A stretch of 64,000 nt of DNA, from NCBI RefSeq assembly GCF_003846445.2, contig NZ_CP030139.2:1116001-1180000 (forward strand), read 5' to 3'. The notes below the pieces were generated by a model that saw nothing but the letters and a program-made list of their open reading frames with translations, made no database searches and was not told where the DNA came from. This document shows positions 17,889-28,828 of this stretch, in pieces. Source of the stretch: Synechococcus elongatus PCC 11801 (GTDB lineage: Bacteria; Cyanobacteriota; Cyanobacteriia; Synechococcales; Synechococcaceae). Within the stretch, counting starts at the first letter, position 1; every line of letters starts with the position of its first letter. Made by a program: the position numbers and the translations under genes.

Positions 17889-18941
17889 CTAATCACTGCT
17901 TTGAAGATCGTCGTCTAAATCAAGAGACAGAATTTCTGCAACATCAGCAAGATCTAAATCTGGTAGGTCTGCCAGATCAGGGACTTCAGGAATAGTTTCT
18001 TCTAAGACGTGAACTTCCGATTCTGCTGCTAATGGAGGTTCTGAACGCGGAGGCAGCGATTCTAAAGCGATCGATTCAGGCTCGACGAGATCAGGTTGCT
18101 CCTGTTCGTCCTGGGTCTGTGTTACTTCTGCGAGAGTTTCCTGTTCTACTAAGGGCTGCTCAATTGCTTCAGTTGCCAAATCAAGATCTAATTCTGGGTG
18201 ATCGAAAAATTCGGGATCGGGAAGGGACTCTAAATCATCCTCAGGTAGAAGTGATTCCGGTAGATCTGGAGAGCGATCAAGGTCAAAGGTAGTCGCCTGA
18301 TCGGAATGGATGACGGCATCTAAAATCTCTTCTGACGTCGCTTTATTTACATTGCTGCCACTCGCTAATGATTCAGAAAGCTGAGGCTGCTTAGCAACAA
18401 TAATTTCTTGGTTCGCAAGGGTCGACAAAACAGCAGTCGGTTCCAAGATAAAGGTTGGATGCTGTTCAGCAGTTTCAACGTCTTGAACCGATACAGAGGT
18501 GACGCCGTGAATATCTCCCCAGCGTAGATAACTGTCGGGCAGGCTAGTGATTTTCTGCTGAGAGAGACGCTGGAGTTGTGGCGGCTGTTCAACAGGTAAT
18601 CCTAATAACTGAGTTCCGTGATCAGGTTGCTCAACCTTCATCAAGATTAAAAAGTGAGCTGATTCAAGTGGGGCTGTAGCTTCAGTTCCTGAGAGGCGCG
18701 ATCGCCCCAATAAATGCTGTTCTAGATCAATCACAATGACCTGCTCACCTTGATAGGTGATTAAACCAAAACCACGTCGATGTGGATCGCCATAAATCTT
18801 AGGAGATTGAATGACCTTATAGATACTCTCAATGGGTAGGGCAAACTGCTCATCAGCAATCACGAACACTAAAAATTGCTGATAGCTAAGTTGAGGATTT
18901 TTGTTTGATCGCTGCAGCCGACGAGGGGTATAGGTAGCCAT
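17889..18941 (-). CDS. CheW-domain protein with long acidic tail (last gene of the pix operon)
   Basis: The 350-residue protein has an N-terminal CheW-like domain (about residues 18-160: QFLVFVIADEQFALPIESI at the start, then YQGEQVIVIDLEQHLLG). A ~180-residue, strongly acidic, leucine/proline-rich tail without recognisable domain follows (repeated E/D-L-P patterns such as PDLPESLLPEDDLES and LADLPDLDLADVAEI). CheW domains bridge receptors and the CheA-type kinase. It starts 10 bp from the pixL stop and closes the six-gene cluster. The tail is probably disordered and could dock a pilus motor or a response regulator, but that is speculation. Confidence 0.75.
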   Translation of the reverse strand: MATYTPRRLQRSNKNPQLSYQQFLVFVIADEQFALPIESIYKVIQSPKIYGDPHRRGFGLITYQGEQVIVIDLEQHLLGRSRLSGTEATAPLESAHFLILMKVEQPDHGTQLLGLPVEQPPQLQRLSQQKITSLPDSYLRWGDIHGVTSVSVQDVETAEQHPTFILEPTAVLSTLANQEIIVAKQPQLSESLASGSNVNKATSEEILDAVIHSDQATTFDLDRSPDLPESLLPEDDLESLPDPEFFDHPELDLDLATEAIEQPLVEQETLAEVTQTQDEQEQPDLVEPESIALESLPPRSEPPLAAESEVHVLEETIPEVPDLADLPDLDLADVAEILSLDLDDDLQSSD

Positions 18942-18950
18942 GGAAAAGCC

Positions 18951-21833
18951 CTAGGAGTGGTTGATCTGAATCAGTTCACGCAGCGTTTGTAGAAGCTCAG
19001 ATTCGCGGAAAGGCTTTGTAAAGTAGGCAGAAGCTCCGAGATTCAAGGCCAGCTTTCGGTGCTTATCACCACTGCGCGAGGTCAACATGGCAATGGGCAG
19101 CCGTCTGACTGAATCTAGATTTTTGACTTGCGCCAAGAATCCGTAGCCATCTAAACGGGGCATCTCAACATCACAGATTGCCGCTTCAACCTGCAGACCG
19201 CCTTTGAGCTTGTCAATTGCTTCTTGGCCATCTTTGGCCTGCTCAACGCGATATCCCGCTTTTTCTAAAATACTGGCTAAAAAGCGCCGCACATTAATCG
19301 AGTCATCAATGATGAGAATGGTCTCTTGTGGGGGTAATAGATACGCGGTGGACTGAGTCGGTTCTAACGGCAGTCGATTCAGCGTATGACTATTTTGAAT
19401 CCATTGCAGCAGTGCAAAGGTATCAACCAGTGGAACAATCCGTCCATCGCCCAAAATCGTACAGCTACTAAATCCTGGGGGGAGCGAGATAGTACTATTC
19501 ACCTGCCGAATCGTGACTTCTTGTTCCCCCCAGTAGCGATCGACTTTAACACCGACAAAGTTGTTGCCTTGATTGATGAGCAGAACAATCGGTTCATTGA
19601 TGGTGGGAACACCGTCCAAACTGACTGGCGGACAGGGGCGACTAAACTGAAACCATTGGTCAAGTTGGAGCAACGGAATCAGCGTATCGTCAAGGTTCAA
19701 AACAGTTTGACCCGCACTATTCAGAACCCACTGAGGATTGAGTTCAATAATTTCCTCGATCGCATCGGTTGGTACGGCAACCAGCATGTTGCTCACTTCA
19801 ATGAGTAGAACCCGTGCAACAGAGAGTGAGAAAGGAACCGTGATCGTAAACGTAGTTCCTTGACCCGATTGCGTATCAATCTGAATATCGCCCCGAATCT
19901 GATGAAGATTTGTCCGGACAACATCCATTCCTACACCACGCCCTGAAAGTTCGGTGACCTGATCAGCGGTGGTGAAGCCAGGCTCAAAAATGAGATCAAG
20001 TAATTCGCGATCGCTTGCAGCTTCAAGGCTGGCTTGATCTAAACCCATCAACTGAGCACGTTGCCGAATCTTTTGAAGATCGACTCCGTTACCATTATCT
20101 TGAATCGTAATAACGGTTTGATTACCTCGATATGCAGCAGTAATTTCAATGGTTGCGGTTGCTGGTTTACCTCGGGATTGACGAACTACGGGCGTCTCAA
20201 TACCGTGATCAAAAGCATTACGAACAAGATGCAGAAGAGGGTCAGTCAGCAACTCTAGGATGGCGCGATCGATCAGCGTATTCTCACCATTAACAATGAG
20301 CTGAACTTCTTTGCCATACTCTTGGCTGAGCTGACGAATCATACGTGGGTAACGATTCACCAAATCTGCAAAAGGACGCATTCTCACCTGTGTGAGGCGA
20401 CCTTGCATTTGCTTAGCCGTACGGTTGAGCGCTTGGCCGGTATGTTCAGTCTCTTCAAGATTGGTTTCGATATCACTCGTAATTTCTTGGATCTGAACAA
20501 TGGTTTCCATCACCTCTTGGGAAACCAAATGGACAGGACTATAGCGATCAAATTCCAAGATATCGAAGCTTTGCTGCCAAGAGTTTAGAGCGCCACCTAC
20601 AACGCTGCTGACTGGGATTGCCGTTGCTGCGCGATCGGTGGTCGCTCGTAGCTCAAAGCTCGATTGCTCCAAGCGTCGTACCTTACTCTTAAGTGTCTGC
20701 AATAACTGTCGCATTCGCTTCAGTTGCAAACTGAGGCCATTCCGCTCGATGGTCAGTTCACCAAACAGCTCACTAATATCCTCTAACTGCTGAACAGCTA
20801 CACGAACAGTTCGCACTTGGCTAACATCTGTTGCCAAATCAGAGGCACTAGATGGAGGATTGATGGTCTGAGTGGTAATCGTTTCAGGCGTAAATTCGAG
20901 CTGCGCTGTCTGAGCAACTGTCAGACCTGGCTCTGATCCCGACTGCAGATCAGCAGTGGAAACGGCTGTCCGGGGCTTGGCGAATGATGTTGATTCCCCA
21001 GTCGGGAGAAATGCCTCGGCAGCTATATCAACCTCTTCTCCCACGGCAATGGAAGGAATGGCATCTGCCAGCTCTGCCCGATAGACAAACTGATCCGGCA
21101 ACGCATTCAACTGTTGAGTCAGGACTAAAGCCTGACAGTGCCTCAAGTCTTTGAGGACTTGGCCTGCGATCGCTTTGACATCTGTTGATGGCTGTTCCAA
21201 CAAATCAGAAATTGAAAGACAGAACTGACTGAATTGAGGGAGTTCTAACATCTGCCCAAGTCCTGAAAGTTCTTGGGCAACGATCGCAAACTCTTCTCGC
21301 AGACAAGGATGATTTGGCGTCTGTAGCACAGTCTCCAAACGTTGCAAACATCCCTCCACTTCGGATTCAAACAGGAGCGATCGCATATCGTCTCCCGCTT
21401 CTTCCGACAGGAGAGCAAGATCATTCTCCGGCTGCGGCTCACCGAACTGATCTCGCAACAATCCAAACAGGGGATGAATATGTCCCTCAAGCCATTGATC
21501 CGTTGGTTCCGTTCCCTGTCGATTCAGCTGGAGCACCTGATGAACTTGGTCAACCGCATGGAGGAGCTGCCGTTCCAAGGGCTTTTCAAGGGTTTTGCCT
21601 GCTCGCATCACCTTGAAAAAGTCCTCTAATTGGTGGGCGAGATCACTAAGGACAGTGAAGCCCATCATGGCTGCGCCACCCTTAATGGAATGGGCAGCCC
21701 GCAGGATCAAATCAATCGTGGAACGGCGATCGCTAGTTTGGCTGATGTCACTAAGCTCTCGCTCAATCGTACTGAGATAGTCTTCAGCTTCTTCCAGAAA
21801 TTGAAGCCGAATCACGGCTTGAGGATCACTCAT
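18951..21833 (-). CDS. pixL: PixL, CheA-type hybrid histidine kinase with C-terminal receiver
   Basis: The 960-residue protein begins with an Hpt domain, phospho-acceptor histidine 48 in AAHSIKGGAAMMGF. A linker with low-complexity sequence follows, then a dimerisation region. The ATPase domain has HLVRNAFDHGIE (N box), DNGNGVD (G1) and GRGVGMDVV (G2). A CheW-like regulatory domain (VARVLLIEVSNMLVAVPTD) and a REC domain at the C-terminus complete it, with the acceptor aspartate in AICDVEMPRLDG and the lysine in FTKPF. It would autophosphorylate in response to PixJ and pass phosphate to PixG/PixH to steer pilus motility. The ATG at 21833 lies four bases past the pixJ stop. Confidence 0.92.
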   Translation of the reverse strand: MSDPQAVIRLQFLEEAEDYLSTIERELSDISQTSDRRSTIDLILRAAHSIKGGAAMMGFTVLSDLAHQLEDFFKVMRAGKTLEKPLERQLLHAVDQVHQVLQLNRQGTEPTDQWLEGHIHPLFGLLRDQFGEPQPENDLALLSEEAGDDMRSLLFESEVEGCLQRLETVLQTPNHPCLREEFAIVAQELSGLGQMLELPQFSQFCLSISDLLEQPSTDVKAIAGQVLKDLRHCQALVLTQQLNALPDQFVYRAELADAIPSIAVGEEVDIAAEAFLPTGESTSFAKPRTAVSTADLQSGSEPGLTVAQTAQLEFTPETITTQTINPPSSASDLATDVSQVRTVRVAVQQLEDISELFGELTIERNGLSLQLKRMRQLLQTLKSKVRRLEQSSFELRATTDRAATAIPVSSVVGGALNSWQQSFDILEFDRYSPVHLVSQEVMETIVQIQEITSDIETNLEETEHTGQALNRTAKQMQGRLTQVRMRPFADLVNRYPRMIRQLSQEYGKEVQLIVNGENTLIDRAILELLTDPLLHLVRNAFDHGIETPVVRQSRGKPATATIEITAAYRGNQTVITIQDNGNGVDLQKIRQRAQLMGLDQASLEAASDRELLDLIFEPGFTTADQVTELSGRGVGMDVVRTNLHQIRGDIQIDTQSGQGTTFTITVPFSLSVARVLLIEVSNMLVAVPTDAIEEIIELNPQWVLNSAGQTVLNLDDTLIPLLQLDQWFQFSRPCPPVSLDGVPTINEPIVLLINQGNNFVGVKVDRYWGEQEVTIRQVNSTISLPPGFSSCTILGDGRIVPLVDTFALLQWIQNSHTLNRLPLEPTQSTAYLLPPQETILIIDDSINVRRFLASILEKAGYRVEQAKDGQEAIDKLKGGLQVEAAICDVEMPRLDGYGFLAQVKNLDSVRRLPIAMLTSRSGDKHRKLALNLGASAYFTKPFRESELLQTLRELIQINHS

Positions 21834-21837
21834 GGCT

Positions 21838-24800
21838 CTATTCCTCAGCACCCACTCTAAAGGTATCAACGGAGGATTTGAGTTTTTGAGCAACGGCAAC
21901 AGTCGACTGAAGGGAAGTCGAGATATGGCGGGATGTATCCGAGATTTCTTCAGAGAAGTCTGCCATCTCTTTCATCAGGTCAGTCACAATGTTCGAAGTT
22001 TGAGACTGACTGACTGTTGCTTGTGAAATGGCTTGAACCAATTGGTCAATCTGTTGAGACACAAACACGATTTCCTCAAGATTTTTCTTCGCCGTTTCGA
22101 CAAGTTGCGTCCCTTCAACCACCTGGCTCGTGCCCGTTTCCATGGCAGTCACCACCTCATTGGTTTCTTGTTGAATGGCTTCAACAATCTGCTCAATTTC
22201 TTTGGTAGCAGCAGCAGAGCGGGTTGCCAGCTCACCCACCTCCTCTGCAACGACTGCAAAGCCTCGACCTTCTTCGCCAGCTCGTGCCGCCTCAATACTG
22301 GCGTTAATTGCCAAGAGGTTGGTCTGAAGGGCGATCTGGTTAATCAGCGAAATTACCTTGGAGATCTGTTGTGAAGACTCACCCAGTCGTTTCACTTTTT
22401 TCGCAGTCTCAGCAACTGTTTCGCGCAAGTGGAGGATGCTCCGTACGGTTTCATCCATGGTTTGACCACTGCTGATTGCCGTCTCAGACGACTTCCGAGC
22501 CACCTCAGCAGCTTGGTTTGCTGTGTTGGAGACGGCAACGATGGAGTTGGACATCTCCGCTACAGCATTCAGCGTCTGTTTAATCTTCTCGGCTTGACTT
22601 TGGGAGTCAGCAGCTAGACGTTGCATCGAGTTGGCATCGCTATCCAGAGAAGCATTCACCTTCTGGGTGGAAGCTTTCACTTGCACCACAACTGCGCGCA
22701 AACTCTCAATCAAGGAGTTGAAAATGTCAGCAACAGTACTAATTTCTCCAGCTGAGATATCTGCCCGAACCGTTAGGTCACCCCGGGATGCTTCTTCAAC
22801 ATCACTGAGCAGCCGAATCAGCTCTGTTTGAATGGCTTCAGTCCGCTGGCGTTGCTCTTGTGCCAACTGTTCTGCGCGATCGCGGGACTCTTCGGCCTGC
22901 CGGAGGAAATCAGCCCGAGCCAAGGCCAAACCGACTTGTGTTGCAAGCTGGGTGAAGAGATCAATTTCTGATTGCTGCCAGTTGCGCGGGCCCGAGCATT
23001 GGTGCGCCACAAACAGGGCAATCAGTTTTTTCTCCACCACGATTGGAGCAACGAGATTCGCTCTAACAGCTAAAGGCTCCAGTTGCTTGAGATGACATTC
23101 CGTCAAGCCAGCATTGTAGATGTCTGGAGTGGCTTGAACGCGGCCAGCCGCATAGGCGTCGACCCAATCGCGCCGGAAGCAAGGGTCATCAATGGTAACG
23201 TGCAATGCTGATGGCCACTCGTAGTCCACCGATTCAGCCACGACTGTGCCAGACCAGGCTTCATCAAATTCATAAACAACCACACGGTTAGTGGAGAGCG
23301 CTCGGCGGGTCTCTTTGACTGCGATTTGGAGGACATCTTCTGGACTTGCTTGCGCAAGAAGTCTAGATGTAATCTCACGAATCTGCTCAGCACGGTTAGC
23401 CTCAGCAACTTGTTGTTCGAGGAAGCGAGCGCGGGTAATTGCCAAGCCGAGCTGTGTTGCCAGCTGACTGAAAAGATCAATTTCAGACTGTTGCCAATTG
23501 CGAGGTCCAGCGCAGTGGTGCGCGACAAAGAGAGCGATCAGCCTTTTCTCCACCACAATCGGAGCAACCAGATTTGCTCTAACTGCCAATGGCTCCAGTT
23601 GCTTGAGGTGACACTCCGTCAAGCCAGCGTTGTAAATATCAGGGGTTGCCTGAATTCGACCTGCTGCATAGGCCTCCACCCAATCGCGCCGGAAACAGGG
23701 GTCATCAATCGTGACATTTAAGGCTGAAGGCCAAGCGGAGTTCACTGACTCCGCAATAACAGTGCCGCTCCAACTGGCATCAAACTCATAGACCACCACG
23801 CGATCGGTGGCAAGGGCACGACGCGTCGCATGAACAGCCAGTTGCAAGACACTATCAACCGTCGTGGGTGAGACGAGCTGTGAGGTAATATCCCGAACGA
23901 TTTTGGCACGGTTCGCCTCAGCGACTTGTTGTTCAAGGAAGCGAGCGCGAGTAATCGCTAAGCCGAGCTGTGTTGCTAGCTGACTGAAAAGATCGATTTC
24001 TGATTGCTCCCAGGTTCGAGTCCCTGAGCATTGGTGCGCAATAAACAATGCAATCAGTTTCTTCTCAATCACGATTGGAGCGACCAGATTGGCCCTGACT
24101 GCCAGAGGCTCCAATTGCTTGAGGTGACATTCTGTCAAGCCCGCATTGTAAATGTCAGGGGTCGCCTGAATCCGACCTGCTGCGTAGGCCTCCACCCAAT
24201 CGCGTCGGAAGCAGGGATCATCGATGACGATGTTGAGTGAAGACGGCCAAGTTGAGTCCACCGACTCCGCAATGATTGTGCCGCTCCAGTTCTCATCAAA
24301 TTCATAAACAATGACGCGATCGGTGGCGAGGGCACGACGGGTTTCTTGCACCGCTACTCGCAGCACGCTCTCAACATCTGATTGAGCAACCAAGTCCGAG
24401 GTAATGGCCCGCACCAATTTGGCGCGGTTGGTCTCTGCAATTTGTTGTTCGAGGAACCGTGCCCGAGTGATCGCCAACCCCACTTGCGTTGCCAATTGAC
24501 CGAAGAGATCCACTTCTGACTGTTCCCAATCTCGCGTCCCTGAGCATTGGTGCGCAATAAACAGTGCAATCAGTTTCTTCTCGATCACGATTGGAGCGAC
24601 CAGATTGGCCCTGACTGCCAGAGGCTCCAGCTGCTTGAGGTGACATTCCGTCAAGCCAGCGTTGTAAATATCAGGGGTTGCCTGAATCCGACCTGCTGCG
24701 TAGGCTTCTACCCAATCGCGCCGGAAGCAGGGATCATCGATGACGATGTTGAGTGAAGACGGCCAAGTTGAGTCCACCGACTCCGCAATGATTGTGCCGC

Positions 24801-26568
24801 TCCAGTTCTCATCAAATTCATAAACAATGACGCGATCGGTGGCGAGGGCACGGCGGGTTTCTTGCACCGCTACTCGCAGCACGCTCTCAACATCTGATTG
24901 AGCAACCAAGTCCGAGGTAATGGCCCGCACCAATTTGGCACGATTGGTCTCTGCAATTTGTTGTTCGAGGAACCGCGCCCGAGTGATCGCCAACCCCACT
25001 TGCGTTGCTAGCTGACCAAAGAGATCAATTTCTGACTGTTGCCAGTCACGTGGTCCTGAGCATTGGTGCGCAATAAACAGTGAAATCAATTTCTTCTCGA
25101 TCACGATTGGAGCCACTAAATTGGCTTTAACGGCCAGAGGCTCCAATTGCTTGAGGTGACATTCCGTCAAGCCCGCATTGTAAATGTCAGGGGTCGCCTG
25201 AATTCGACCTGCTGCGTAGGCTTCCACCCAATCGCGTCGGAAGCAGGGGTCATCAATGACAATGTTGAGCGAAGAAGGCCAATTTGAATCGACTGACTCA
25301 GCAATGATTGTGCCGCTCCAGTTCTTGTCAAATTCATAGATGACGACACGATCGGCATTAATGGCACGACGGGTTTCCTGCACTGCCGTCCGAAGCACAC
25401 TCTCAACATCTTCTTGAACCACAAGTTCCGAGGTGATCGCCCGTACCAGCTTGGCGCGATTGGCCTCGATCACTTGTTGCTCTAGGAACAGAGCACGCGT
25501 CATCGCCAGACCGACTTGCGTTGCCAATTGGGTGAGCAAATCAATTTCAAACTGTTGCCACTGGCGCGGTCCCGAACATTGATGGGCAATAAACAAGCCA
25601 ATCAGTTGCTTCTCAACGATGACCGGTGTAACGAGGTTGGCACGAACCGCAAGGGGAGCCAACTGGCGCAGGTGACATTCCGTCAAGCCAGCATTGTAAA
25701 TATCTGCCGTCGCCTGCACACGACCCGCTGTGTAAGCATCAATCCAATCTTTGCGGAAACAGGGATCATCAATCGTGATGTGCAGAGCTGGTGGCCAACC
25801 TGGATCAACGGACTCAGCAACGACGGTGCCCGCCCAAGTTTCATCAAACTTGTAAAGGATGACGCGATCGCAGCCAAGTGCAATCCGAGCTTCTTGAACC
25901 GCAGCGTTGAGAACGTCAGCGACACTCGATTGAGAAATCAGACGCAATGTGATTTCACGAACTAGCTGATTGACTCGCACCGTGACCGAGCGTTGCTGCT
26001 CTCGACTCACTTCTGCTGTTGCAAGAACAGTTTGAATTTGAGTGGCAGCTTGATTGACTTCCTGCCCAAGCACCGCGATTTCATCATCCCCATCAGCGGC
26101 GACAGCAACGTTCAAATCCCCTTGACTCAATTTTTCCAGTGCGTCGATGACCGCCTGCAGTCGTTGGCTACTACGGCTGGCTAAGGCCGCGGCAATCACC
26201 CCAACGGCCAAAGCTGACAACCCTGTCCCCCACAAGAGGGTGAAGAAGAGGCTGCGCTTGAGTTGTTCAGCTTCTTGTTGCGCAGTCGCACTCCCGCTTG
26301 TCTGGGCCATCTCCGTGATTGAACGGTTGACCAAACTGTGGGTAATCATGCCAACACCCAAGACTGGCAGCACCCCCATCGCGATCGCCAACAGTGTCAG
26401 CTTCAACTTCAATCCTGAGCGGACGGGCTTGCTGCCAGTACTAGAGGAATTCTGACCATTGGCTGAGGGGGTTCCCAGATCAGCGCCTATCACACCTTGA
26501 TTGAAATGCTCAGCAGTGGAGTTGCCAACTTGGGGCGCAGCATTTTCAGGGCGTTGGGTGGTGGACAT
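21838..26568 (-). CDS. pixJ: PixJ, phototaxis receptor with six tandem DXCF cyanobacteriochrome GAF domains
   Basis: The 1576-residue protein has a ~54-residue polar N-terminus and a helix near residues 55-78. A very short loop, a second helix near 105-128 and a HAMP domain follow. Six GAF units come next, on an exact 172-residue period, and the C-terminus is a methyl-accepting signalling domain (hairpin tip near [19 protein letters not shown]). In every unit a DPCF motif (Cys 270, 442, 614, 786, 958, 1130) and an ECH motif (Cys 298, 470, 642, 814, 986, 1158) are present, the dual-cysteine signature of blue/green DXCF cyanobacteriochromes. It needs a linear tetrapyrrole. Published S. elongatus PixJ is, as I recall, described with five GAF domains; here I count six. 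The ATG at 26568 follows AAAGGAAT. Confidence 0.93.
22880..25970 (-). repeat. Six tandem 516-bp GAF-encoding repeats inside pixJ
   Basis: The GAF-coding part of pixJ consists of six units repeating every 516 bp (172 codons) without indels. I checked this by locating the DPCF cysteine codons, for example at 25759-25761, 25243-25245 and 23179-23181. Units 3 and 4 are nearly identical: about 190 bp at 24207-24400 match 24723-24916 with only single-base differences, and the encoded proteins are identical for most of the domain. The first and last units are the most diverged. The pattern fits recent duplication or gene conversion in the middle of an older array. Confidence 0.9.
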
Positions 26569-26654: not shown

Positions 26655-27161
26655 CTAGGTGACTTGAGGCTTGAGGTTGTTGCTATTCGCGATCGCAGCG
26701 GAATCGAGTACCAGCAACAGTTCTTGGTCGTACAGGTAGCAGCCTCTGAGGTAGGGCACCAAACTGGCCTCAACGGCCCCAACCGGTGACTGGATGCTGC
26801 TAGGGTCTAGTCGACTGAGACCTTCAACTTGCTGAATGGCTAAACCGAGTAATTGACCCGCAACTTGGATGACAACAACGGCATATTGCCGGAGATCAAA
26901 ACTCAGGGCTGGAAAACCCAACAGCTGAGGAAGATCAATCATCCAAACGACGCGGTTGCGATGGTTAAACAGCCCCAAAACGGTACTGGGCATGTTGGGC
27001 ATGAGGGTCAACTGATGGGGATTCACCATCACGACTTCCTGAGCCTCAATCGTTGGGATGACGGCGATCGCAACATCACTCAGTCTGAGCCGCAAATAGG
27101 ACTGAACTGATTGCGTGGCTAGCGATCCGGGTGTCAAGCCAAGCAAGAGCGAGCTATTCAT
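26655..27161 (-). CDS. pixI: PixI, CheW-like coupling protein
   Basis: The 168-residue protein starts [18 protein letters not shown] and contains one CheW domain: a beta-rich core with [21 protein letters not shown] and [21 protein letters not shown]. It should couple PixJ to the PixL kinase. I chose the ATG at 27161 over a longer frame that overlaps pixH, because the family N-terminus is short. The gene sits 25 bp beyond the pixH stop and 86 bp before the pixJ start. Confidence 0.85.
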
Positions 27162-27186
27162 GTCATACCTGACGGGATTACCATTC

Positions 27187-27549
27187 CTAGGAGTCAACAG
27201 AACGAACAGCTTTCACCAAATCCTCTTGTTTAAAAGGCTTGGTTACGTAAGCATCGGCTCCCTGCTTCATCGCCCACAACCGATCGATTTCCTGATTTTT
27301 GGAACTGCAGACAATCACCGGCAGTTTTTCAGTCTCAGGATTTTTCTTCAGGCTGCGGCAGAGTTCAAAACCACTCATGCCAGGCATCACCACATCCGTG
27401 ACCACGACATCTGGTTTGTACAAATCCACCTTACTTAAAGCATCTTGGGCGTTATTCGCCCCAATCACGGTGTAGCCACTGGCCTGTAGGTAAGTGGTAA
27501 TCAGCTCCATTTCGGAAGCCGTATCTTCAACAACCAGCACTGTGCTCAT
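27187..27549 (-). CDS. pixH: PixH, CheY-like single-domain response regulator
   Basis: The 120-residue protein is a stand-alone receiver. The acidic pocket is in VVEDTASEM, the phospho-acceptor is Asp52 in VVTDVVMPGMSG, the threonine/serine switch lies in IVCSSK, and the lysine is in YVTKPF. No output domain is attached, as in CheY. By analogy with the Synechocystis Pil/Pix systems it would be a phosphate target of PixL that modulates pilus retraction or polarity. It lies between pixG and pixI in the operon. Confidence 0.9.
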   Translation of the reverse strand: MSTVLVVEDTASEMELITTYLQASGYTVIGANNAQDALSKVDLYKPDVVVTDVVMPGMSGFELCRSLKKNPETEKLPVIVCSSKNQEIDRLWAMKQGADAYVTKPFKQEDLVKAVRSVDS

Positions 27550-27601: not shown

Positions 27602-28825
27602 TCACGCACGAACATACTGCTCAACAACGTTGAGTAACCCCTCCCGAGTGAAAGGCTTCGTGAGATAGTCAGTTGCTCCTGACATCTTGGCTTTCGCTCG
27701 ATCGATCAAACCCGTGTTGCCTGTCACCATAATAATTGGCGTGTTTTTGAAGTTTGGATGGTTTCGAACAACCTTACAAAATTTGTAACCATCAACATTC
27801 GGCATTCCCACGTCGAGCAGGATAATGTCAGGTTCAATTCGCATGACCTCCATCAATGCCTTCACCGAGTCGATGATGGTAATTACCTCAAAGTGATCTT
27901 GATCTAGGAATCGTCGTAACTCGCTTAAGATGATCGGGCTGTCATCGATACAGACAATCTTGACTTTCTGATTGGCTGTGAAATCGCTTCCTTGATTTGC
28001 GATCGATGTGGAGGACTGGCTGACAAAAGCACTTCGAGAGGACGTGCGATCGGAGTTGCGCAGAGGAGGCAGCTTATCAAAGGGTGGCTGCGGCTCTCGG
28101 AGAAAAACAACACCCTCTTGGATGTAGGGGTCGAGACTTCGCAGCAACTTGATTTCATCTTGATGAATGAGAGCAGCAAGATGACGCAGGCTATAGCCCT
28201 TCAATAAATTACCGAGCTTCTGAATCTTCTCTGCACTAAATTTGCTGCTGGTCGTTTGACTAAAAAGATAGGGACGCTGGAACGGGGAATAGACTTTTTC
28301 TGAGAAACTGACCCATTCTTGGATGCGATTTCCAGCCTCTTCTAATAAAGGTGGCAAAGCAAACTCAGTCAGAACAGGCAGCGAGGAATCCAACGCCAGA
28401 AACTTATGGTTTGCGTCTTCTAGACAAAGAAAAGACTCTAGAGTTTCAGCAATTAAACTCTTAATGAGCAAGTCTGACTGGAACTGATTCAGAAACCCTT
28501 CCGATCGCAGCCAAGACAGGGCTTGATAAACAGCATTCGCTTTGGGGAGATCATCTTGATCAAAGAGCGATCGCACCTGCGCACGAACCGTGCGATCGAT
28601 CGCTGGAAGTTCTGCACTAAACAGCCGGAAGTTGCGCTCCAAGCAGTCAAAGGGATCAATTGAGGTCATGCCATAAAAGACATTGCCTTCATGGAAGTAG
28701 AAAATCCAGCTAATCTCTTGATTGAAGACGGTTAAACATCCACTCGCCTTAGAGTCAGCTAGCTGACTAAGGAGCTGTACTGGCTTCAACATTGCTGTTG
28801 ATCGATCTGTGGCAGAGTAAACCAT
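27602..28825 (-). CDS. pixG: PixG, PatA-type response regulator
   Basis: The 407-residue protein has an N-terminal PATAN (DUF4388) domain (about residues 14-120, with SGCLTVFNQEISWIFYFHEG), a helical middle with a winged-helix-like part (GNLLKGYSLRHLAALI), and a C-terminal receiver. The receiver shows CIDDSPIILSELRRF, the acceptor aspartate in IILLDVGMPNVDG and the lysine in YLTKPF. PatA/PixG/PilG proteins link CheA-type kinases to the pilus extension motor. It is the first gene of the operon, so the promoter should lie in the AT-rich gap to its right. The ATG at 28825 is preferred to a TTG one codon earlier. Confidence 0.88.
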   Translation of the reverse strand: MVYSATDRSTAMLKPVQLLSQLADSKASGCLTVFNQEISWIFYFHEGNVFYGMTSIDPFDCLERNFRLFSAELPAIDRTVRAQVRSLFDQDDLPKANAVYQALSWLRSEGFLNQFQSDLLIKSLIAETLESFLCLEDANHKFLALDSSLPVLTEFALPPLLEEAGNRIQEWVSFSEKVYSPFQRPYLFSQTTSSKFSAEKIQKLGNLLKGYSLRHLAALIHQDEIKLLRSLDPYIQEGVVFLREPQPPFDKLPPLRNSDRTSSRSAFVSQSSTSIANQGSDFTANQKVKIVCIDDSPIILSELRRFLDQDHFEVITIIDSVKALMEVMRIEPDIILLDVGMPNVDGYKFCKVVRNHPNFKNTPIIMVTGNTGLIDRAKAKMSGATDYLTKPFTREGLLNVVEQYVRA

Positions 28826-28828
28826 CAA

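Follow-up and report, generated by a model that had tools for sequence, protein, structure and literature searches.

The PixJ receptor of Synechococcus elongatus (PixJSe) is the closest published sister of the protein considered here, and in work by Yang et al. 2018 (PNAS) it reportedly contains five GAF domains. More broadly, PixJ is said to have between one and five GAFs (PMC13383048). A GAF within a PixJ is not necessarily photoactive, since Synechocystis PixJ1 carries a chromophore on just one of its two (PMC5812497). A longer array is that of PtxD (NpF2164) from Nostoc punctiforme, which has seven GAFs of several colour types, at least six of which bind bilin, with a second cysteine link described for two only (PMC5812497).

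Here, we analyse a pixJ gene on the minus strand of a 64,000-nucleotide stretch of cyanobacterial DNA, the whole of which we refer to as the window. The encoded protein is a known kind of receptor that has one unit more than its published sister. In our main reading, to which we give a probability of roughly 0.85, it is a six-GAF PixJ of type-IV-pilus phototaxis, with blue/green-switching units set on a helical spine and a sixth unit that would have been acquired recently in the middle of the array.

Architecture and Identity of the Receptor

The receptor is encoded by one open reading frame (Table 1), in which Pfam places six GAF stretches between one HAMP and one MCP signalling domain. Hydropathy identifies two hydrophobic helices N-terminal of the HAMP domain, giving the protein the layout of a transmembrane receptor: membrane helices and HAMP at the N-terminus and an MCP domain at the C-terminus. 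The number of units is the same by three routes, namely Pfam, motif counts (six DPCF and six ECH), and an independent direct-repeat search of the DNA, which recovered six copies in 516-nt steps; a repeat of this size far exceeds chance. An earlier sequence-only reading, which had counted six GAF units, each retaining both the DPCF and the ECH cysteine and recurring with an exact period of 172 residues, was correct on all three points, the period holding in 5 of 5 DPCF-to-DPCF steps and corresponding to 516 nt. The DPCF cysteine always lies 28 residues ahead of the ECH cysteine, so that all six are DXCF GAFs with the second cysteine at this distance before the canonical Cys-His, and all six also carry a TePixJ-like chromophore-binding stretch.

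The same reading described the six units as near-equal. This is true of units 2–6, which are mutually 76–99% identical in protein sequence and almost invariant in their chromophore-binding stretches, but not of unit 1, which is merely 55–61% identical to the others. In the five-unit receptor, mutating different GAF domains reportedly affected positive and negative phototaxis (again in the work of Yang et al. 2018); taken together with the divergence of unit 1, this makes it probable that some units cannot stand in for others.

The best four solved relatives of a unit are TePixJ-type GAF entries (E 2e-50 to 3e-49), whose dual-cysteine motifs align with those of the unit, and a model of a pair of units from the window matches the TePixJ entries 4glq and 6p58 with an rmsd of 1.1 Å and 55% identity. 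The 50 matches listed in a fold search with the unit-pair model comprised single cyanobacteriochrome GAFs, phytochrome-type modules, a dual-sensor kinase, and a mammalian GAF pair, and no tandem cyanobacteriochrome array was among them. By homology to TePixJ, bilin binding and blue/green switching are the most likely properties predicted for the units.

The gene belongs to a cluster of six chemotaxis-like genes, all on one strand, in which PixJ is accompanied by CheA, CheW, CheY, and a PATAN response regulator. The same six genes occur in identical order in the sister genome G001 (57–90% identity) and also in a more distant genome, G030, whose PixJ includes the TePixJ sequence deposited in the Protein Data Bank. 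Domain order, the TePixJ match, and the gene cluster together identify the 1576-aa protein, at the level of sequence, as PixJ, the type of phototaxis receptor that had been proposed.

Table 1. Features of the pixJ locus, in window coordinates.
Feature	Position	Strand	Evidence
pixJ, 1576-aa phototaxis receptor: 2 TM - HAMP - six DXCF GAF - MCP signalling domain	21838..26568	-	ORF (ATG at 26568, stop at 21838), Pfam, motifs, hydropathy
pixJ, predicted membrane helix 1	26329..26415	-	Hydropathy
pixJ, predicted membrane helix 2	26176..26253	-	Hydropathy
pixJ HAMP domain	26032..26184	-	Pfam PF00672
pixJ GAF unit 1 (DPCF + ECH), most divergent, orthologous to S. elongatus unit 1	25546..26061	-	Motifs, alignment, unit trees
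pixJ GAF unit 2 (DPCF + ECH)	25030..25545	-	Motifs, alignment, unit trees
pixJ GAF unit 3 (DPCF + ECH), near-twin of unit 4	24514..25029	-	94.6% DNA identity to unit 4; dS 0.22
pixJ GAF unit 4 (DPCF + ECH), near-twin of unit 3	23998..24513	-	Motifs, unit trees, dS
pixJ GAF unit 5 (DPCF + ECH), orthologous to S. elongatus unit 4	23482..23997	-	Motifs, unit trees
pixJ GAF unit 6 (DPCF + ECH), orthologous to S. elongatus unit 5	22966..23481	-	Motifs, unit trees
pixJ GAF 3-GAF 4 linker helix, 45 residues, continuous, one of five equivalent	24388..24522	-	AlphaFold2 pair and array models
pixJ MCP signalling domain	21958..22506	-	Pfam PF00015
PixG-like response regulator, PATAN (DUF4388) domain	27605..28828	-	Synteny with S. 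elongatus, 75% identity
PixH-like CheY response regulator	27190..27549	-	90% identity to S. elongatus
PixI-like CheW	26658..27197	-	Domains, synteny with S. elongatus
PixL-like CheA hybrid histidine kinase (Hpt, HATPase, CheW, REC)	18954..21899	-	Domains, synteny with S. elongatus
Second CheW-domain protein, gene 6 of the cluster	17892..18941	-	Domains, synteny with S. elongatus

A further GAF-containing gene was noticed outside the window (G000:C1:1242950-1244431; L008, L212). It encodes CBS-like, GAF, and GGDEF domains, and an in-frame TAG after the GAF part divides it, ahead of GGDEF, into frames of 472 and 185 aa; the frame in G001 is intact, at 684 aa and 82% identity. The split gene is either a decayed signal-linked diguanylate cyclase or the product of a sequencing error.

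Five Units in S. elongatus and the Origin of the Sixth

The two genomes were placed by means of KaiA. Against what we take to be the PCC 7942 KaiA sequence, KaiA of G001 is a 100% match over residues 2–284, a perfect agreement that serves as its own check on the reference, and KaiA of the window's genome is 86% identical. We therefore use G001 as a stand-in for S. elongatus and assign the window to a congeneric sister species, distinct from S. elongatus sensu stricto. The G001 PixJ has five GAF units, all with DPCF and ECH and all 172 residues apart. The contrast that the earlier sequence-only reading had drawn, six units here against the five of the published PixJSe, thus holds on an actual genome.

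In unit trees, unit 1 groups with G001 unit 1, unit 5 with G001 unit 4, and unit 6 with G001 unit 5; window units 2–4 and G001 units 2–3 cluster together and are split by species in the DNA tree. The first unit and the last two units are orthologous between the two species, with turnover of copy number in mid-array. Units 3 and 4 differ at 28 positions in 516 nt (94.6% identity), mostly synonymous, with a dS of 0.22 and a dN/dS of 0.04, and one of these near-twins is, by all appearances, the additional copy. For position-matched units and the MCP region, dS between the species is about 1.5–3.4, near saturation; since the value for units 3 and 4 is so much lower, the change in copy number, or a homogenisation, must have taken place in mid-array well after the species split, and both units seem to have been under purifying selection since then. 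When the array is compared with a copy of itself offset by one unit, similarity is uneven: the beginnings of units 5 and 6 match well and the stretches after them poorly, as expected if adjacent units recombine.

We propose that recombination of neighbouring units recently gave rise to the sixth unit, through a tandem duplication in register (or a conversion) in mid-array, and that purifying selection has retained it; the added unit is in frame and looks functional. Alternatively, the sixth unit could be older and units 3 and 4 alike through gene conversion, and the five units of S. elongatus could reflect the loss of one. Neutral drift, in which unequal crossing-over adds and removes units in mid-array and the sixth confers nothing on which selection acts, is a possible if doubtful account. 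It would fit a copy number that differs between sister species in mid-array only, as well as the identical runs and patchy similarity that indicate recombination between neighbours. The dN/dS of 0.04 for units 3 and 4 and their intact cysteines speak against it, as both copies are constrained in protein sequence, although such a value could also come from gene conversion, or from selection that guards solely against misfolding.

Spacing of the Units along a Probable Helical Spine

According to a review that cites a 2013 commentary, cyanobacteriochrome GAFs in tandem show a regular spacing with signatures of the heptad type, and the heptad spacing rule itself is thus previously noted and not new here (PMC6798134). 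We measured the linker core, defined from the conserved His past the chromophore-binding stretch to the conserved Arg that opens the next GAF, in every tandem cyanobacteriochrome GAF pair of the retrieved loci. Linkers of 78+7n residues were found in 70 of 76 pairs in a first set and 100 of 105 in a second set (80 named loci, partly overlapping the first). Pooling with removal of duplicates left 154 of 165 pairs on this lattice (138 of 78 residues, 9 of 85, 6 of 92, and 1 of 99, with 11 of other lengths). The linker was still 78 residues long in 26 of the 34 pairs in which the GAF interior had changed in length, which places the constraint on the linker. If each length is scored once within a family, whole heptads account for about 8 of the 13 departures from 78 (P about 1e-4), or for 5 of 9–10 once possibly orthologous cases are merged (P 0.005–0.008); the events were tallied manually, and their numbers are approximate.

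In an AlphaFold2 model of units 3–4, a single 45-residue helix joins the two GAFs (mean pLDDT 91.7), and a model of the array, of moderate confidence (pLDDT 76, pTM 0.38), repeats this helix five times in 172-residue steps. Taken with the linker lengths, these models make the perfect register the ordinary outcome of a helical, probably coiled-coil, spine. The exact 172-residue period, which the earlier reading linked with possible light-gathering, is no evidence of an antenna; tandem cyanobacteriochrome GAFs in many families of cyanobacteria usually have this spacing.

Distribution among Cyanobacteria

In a sample of 390 cyanobacterial genomes, with at most nine candidates scored per genome, no ORF with six strong matches was found other than that of the window's genome; the searches favour close relatives, and the six-unit count is a lower bound on how common such receptors are. 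The pattern DPCF-25 residues-xCH occurs six times on one strand in two other genomes, G090 and G315. Both were rejected as six-unit cases: the PixJ of G090 has five units, and the matches in G315 are spread over several contigs, the best of which has two in one ORF. Among the 80 named loci, the maximum was five units, in Gloeomargarita.

Several other arrays were noted in the course of this survey. A 1779-aa ORF (L117, in G027) has seven GAFs and is PtxD-like in that number; its periods range from 175 to 197 owing to GAF interiors that differ in length, and 78-residue linkers are kept in 5 of 6 cases. Five-GAF arrays with a period of mostly 172 are found at L139 5983-8571 (Okeania), L153, and L156, and the last unit in these is VPCF or VTCF, the Asp of DXCF having gone from the output-proximal unit in several filamentous cyanobacteria. 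A two-unit DPCF/ECH cyanobacteriochrome locus (L172) is titled Candidatus Gracilibacteria isolate SU_1_2 (CPR) and is probably a mis-binned cyanobacterial contig.

A Model for Signalling by Six Units

By analogy with TePixJ and PixJ1, PixJ would act as the membrane photoreceptor of the type-IV-pilus phototaxis pathway. Each unit is expected to hold a bilin on its ECH cysteine, to form a reversible second bond via the cysteine of DPCF, and to alternate between blue-absorbing and green-absorbing forms, as TePixJ homology suggests. The linker helices presumably pair in the receptor dimer to form a coiled-coil spine, and the structure models suggest that a switch in one unit could be passed along this rod to the MCP domain, which would in turn control the CheA-CheW-CheY/PATAN relay of its own cluster. 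Because the length of the linker is fixed modulo one heptad, the rod would tolerate the insertion of whole 172-residue units. A sixth unit would most likely act quantitatively, by raising the number of switches that capture photons in each receptor or by shifting the response threshold, and not by bringing in a new colour.

An extension of this model, more speculative than drift and to be held loosely, is that PixJ sets its light dose through the number of its middle units, and that this number can evolve. Recombination would insert or remove whole units in register, each of them contributing one more equivalent switch on the heptad-phased spine, and species would in this way tune the light dose required for turning, with the first and last two units keeping special jobs.

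A PtxD-like array, whose units would sense different colours, is unlikely; multi-colour arrays exist (PMC5812497) and unit 1 is clearly unlike units 2–6, but all six share DPCF, ECH, and nearly one chromophore-binding stretch. We rate lower again the idea that six equal, evenly spaced chromophores share excitation or switch jointly, so that the response is sharper than that of independent units. The close identity of units 2–6 and their almost invariant chromophore-binding stretches would suit such an arrangement, as would the modelled even spacing along the rod. Even spacing, however, is general in nearly all tandem cyanobacteriochromes examined, including those of mixed type, unit 1 is divergent, and the 45-residue helix between units would measure about 67 Å if straight. 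Since isomerisation, more than fluorescence, is the usual fate of an excited cyanobacteriochrome, only weak energy transfer would be expected over such distances, and light-gathering of this kind is unlikely at the spacing that the helix implies. Repeat misassembly is scarcely credible as the source of the sixth unit, since units 3 and 4, although similar enough to trouble an assembler, carry 28 scattered differences, and the longest exact inter-unit repeat, 131 nt inside a 2.7-Mb contig, makes a wrong unit count improbable.

Significance and Comparison with Known Receptors

The sister species provide a natural five-versus-six comparison in one receptor, through which the bearing of photosensor number on sensitivity and on the switch between positive and negative phototaxis is directly testable. 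The 78+7n lattice (154 of 165 pairs) also provides a rule for designing optogenetic receptors with cyanobacteriochrome units inserted or deleted. Set beside the receptors described so far, the PixJ of the window compares as follows:

(i) PixJSe (Synpcc7942_0858; PCC 7942 / UTEX 3055), as read from G001, has the same domain order, 172-residue period, DPCF and ECH motifs, and six-gene cluster. The two proteins are 80–84% identical across their aligned parts and differ in having five and six units, respectively, with middle copies that are species-specific (units 2–3 in PixJSe and units 2–4 in the window PixJ).

(ii) TePixJ of Thermosynechococcus supplies the nearest solved GAF, at ~55% identity to the window units, and agrees with the window PixJ in domain order and in type of operon. 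It contains only one DXCF GAF, whereas the window PixJ contains six.

(iii) The five-unit PixJ of Gloeomargarita has DPCF and xCH in all of its GAFs and follows the same linker lattice, but its periods alternate between 172 and 179, whereas that of the window PixJ is 172 throughout. Its array is the product of an independent expansion.

(iv) PtxD is, like the window PixJ, an MCP-coupled phototaxis receptor with more than five GAFs. Where PtxD has seven of several colour types, the window PixJ has six, all DPCF/ECH; an array of six units is therefore unusual, yet has a parallel in the seven of PtxD.
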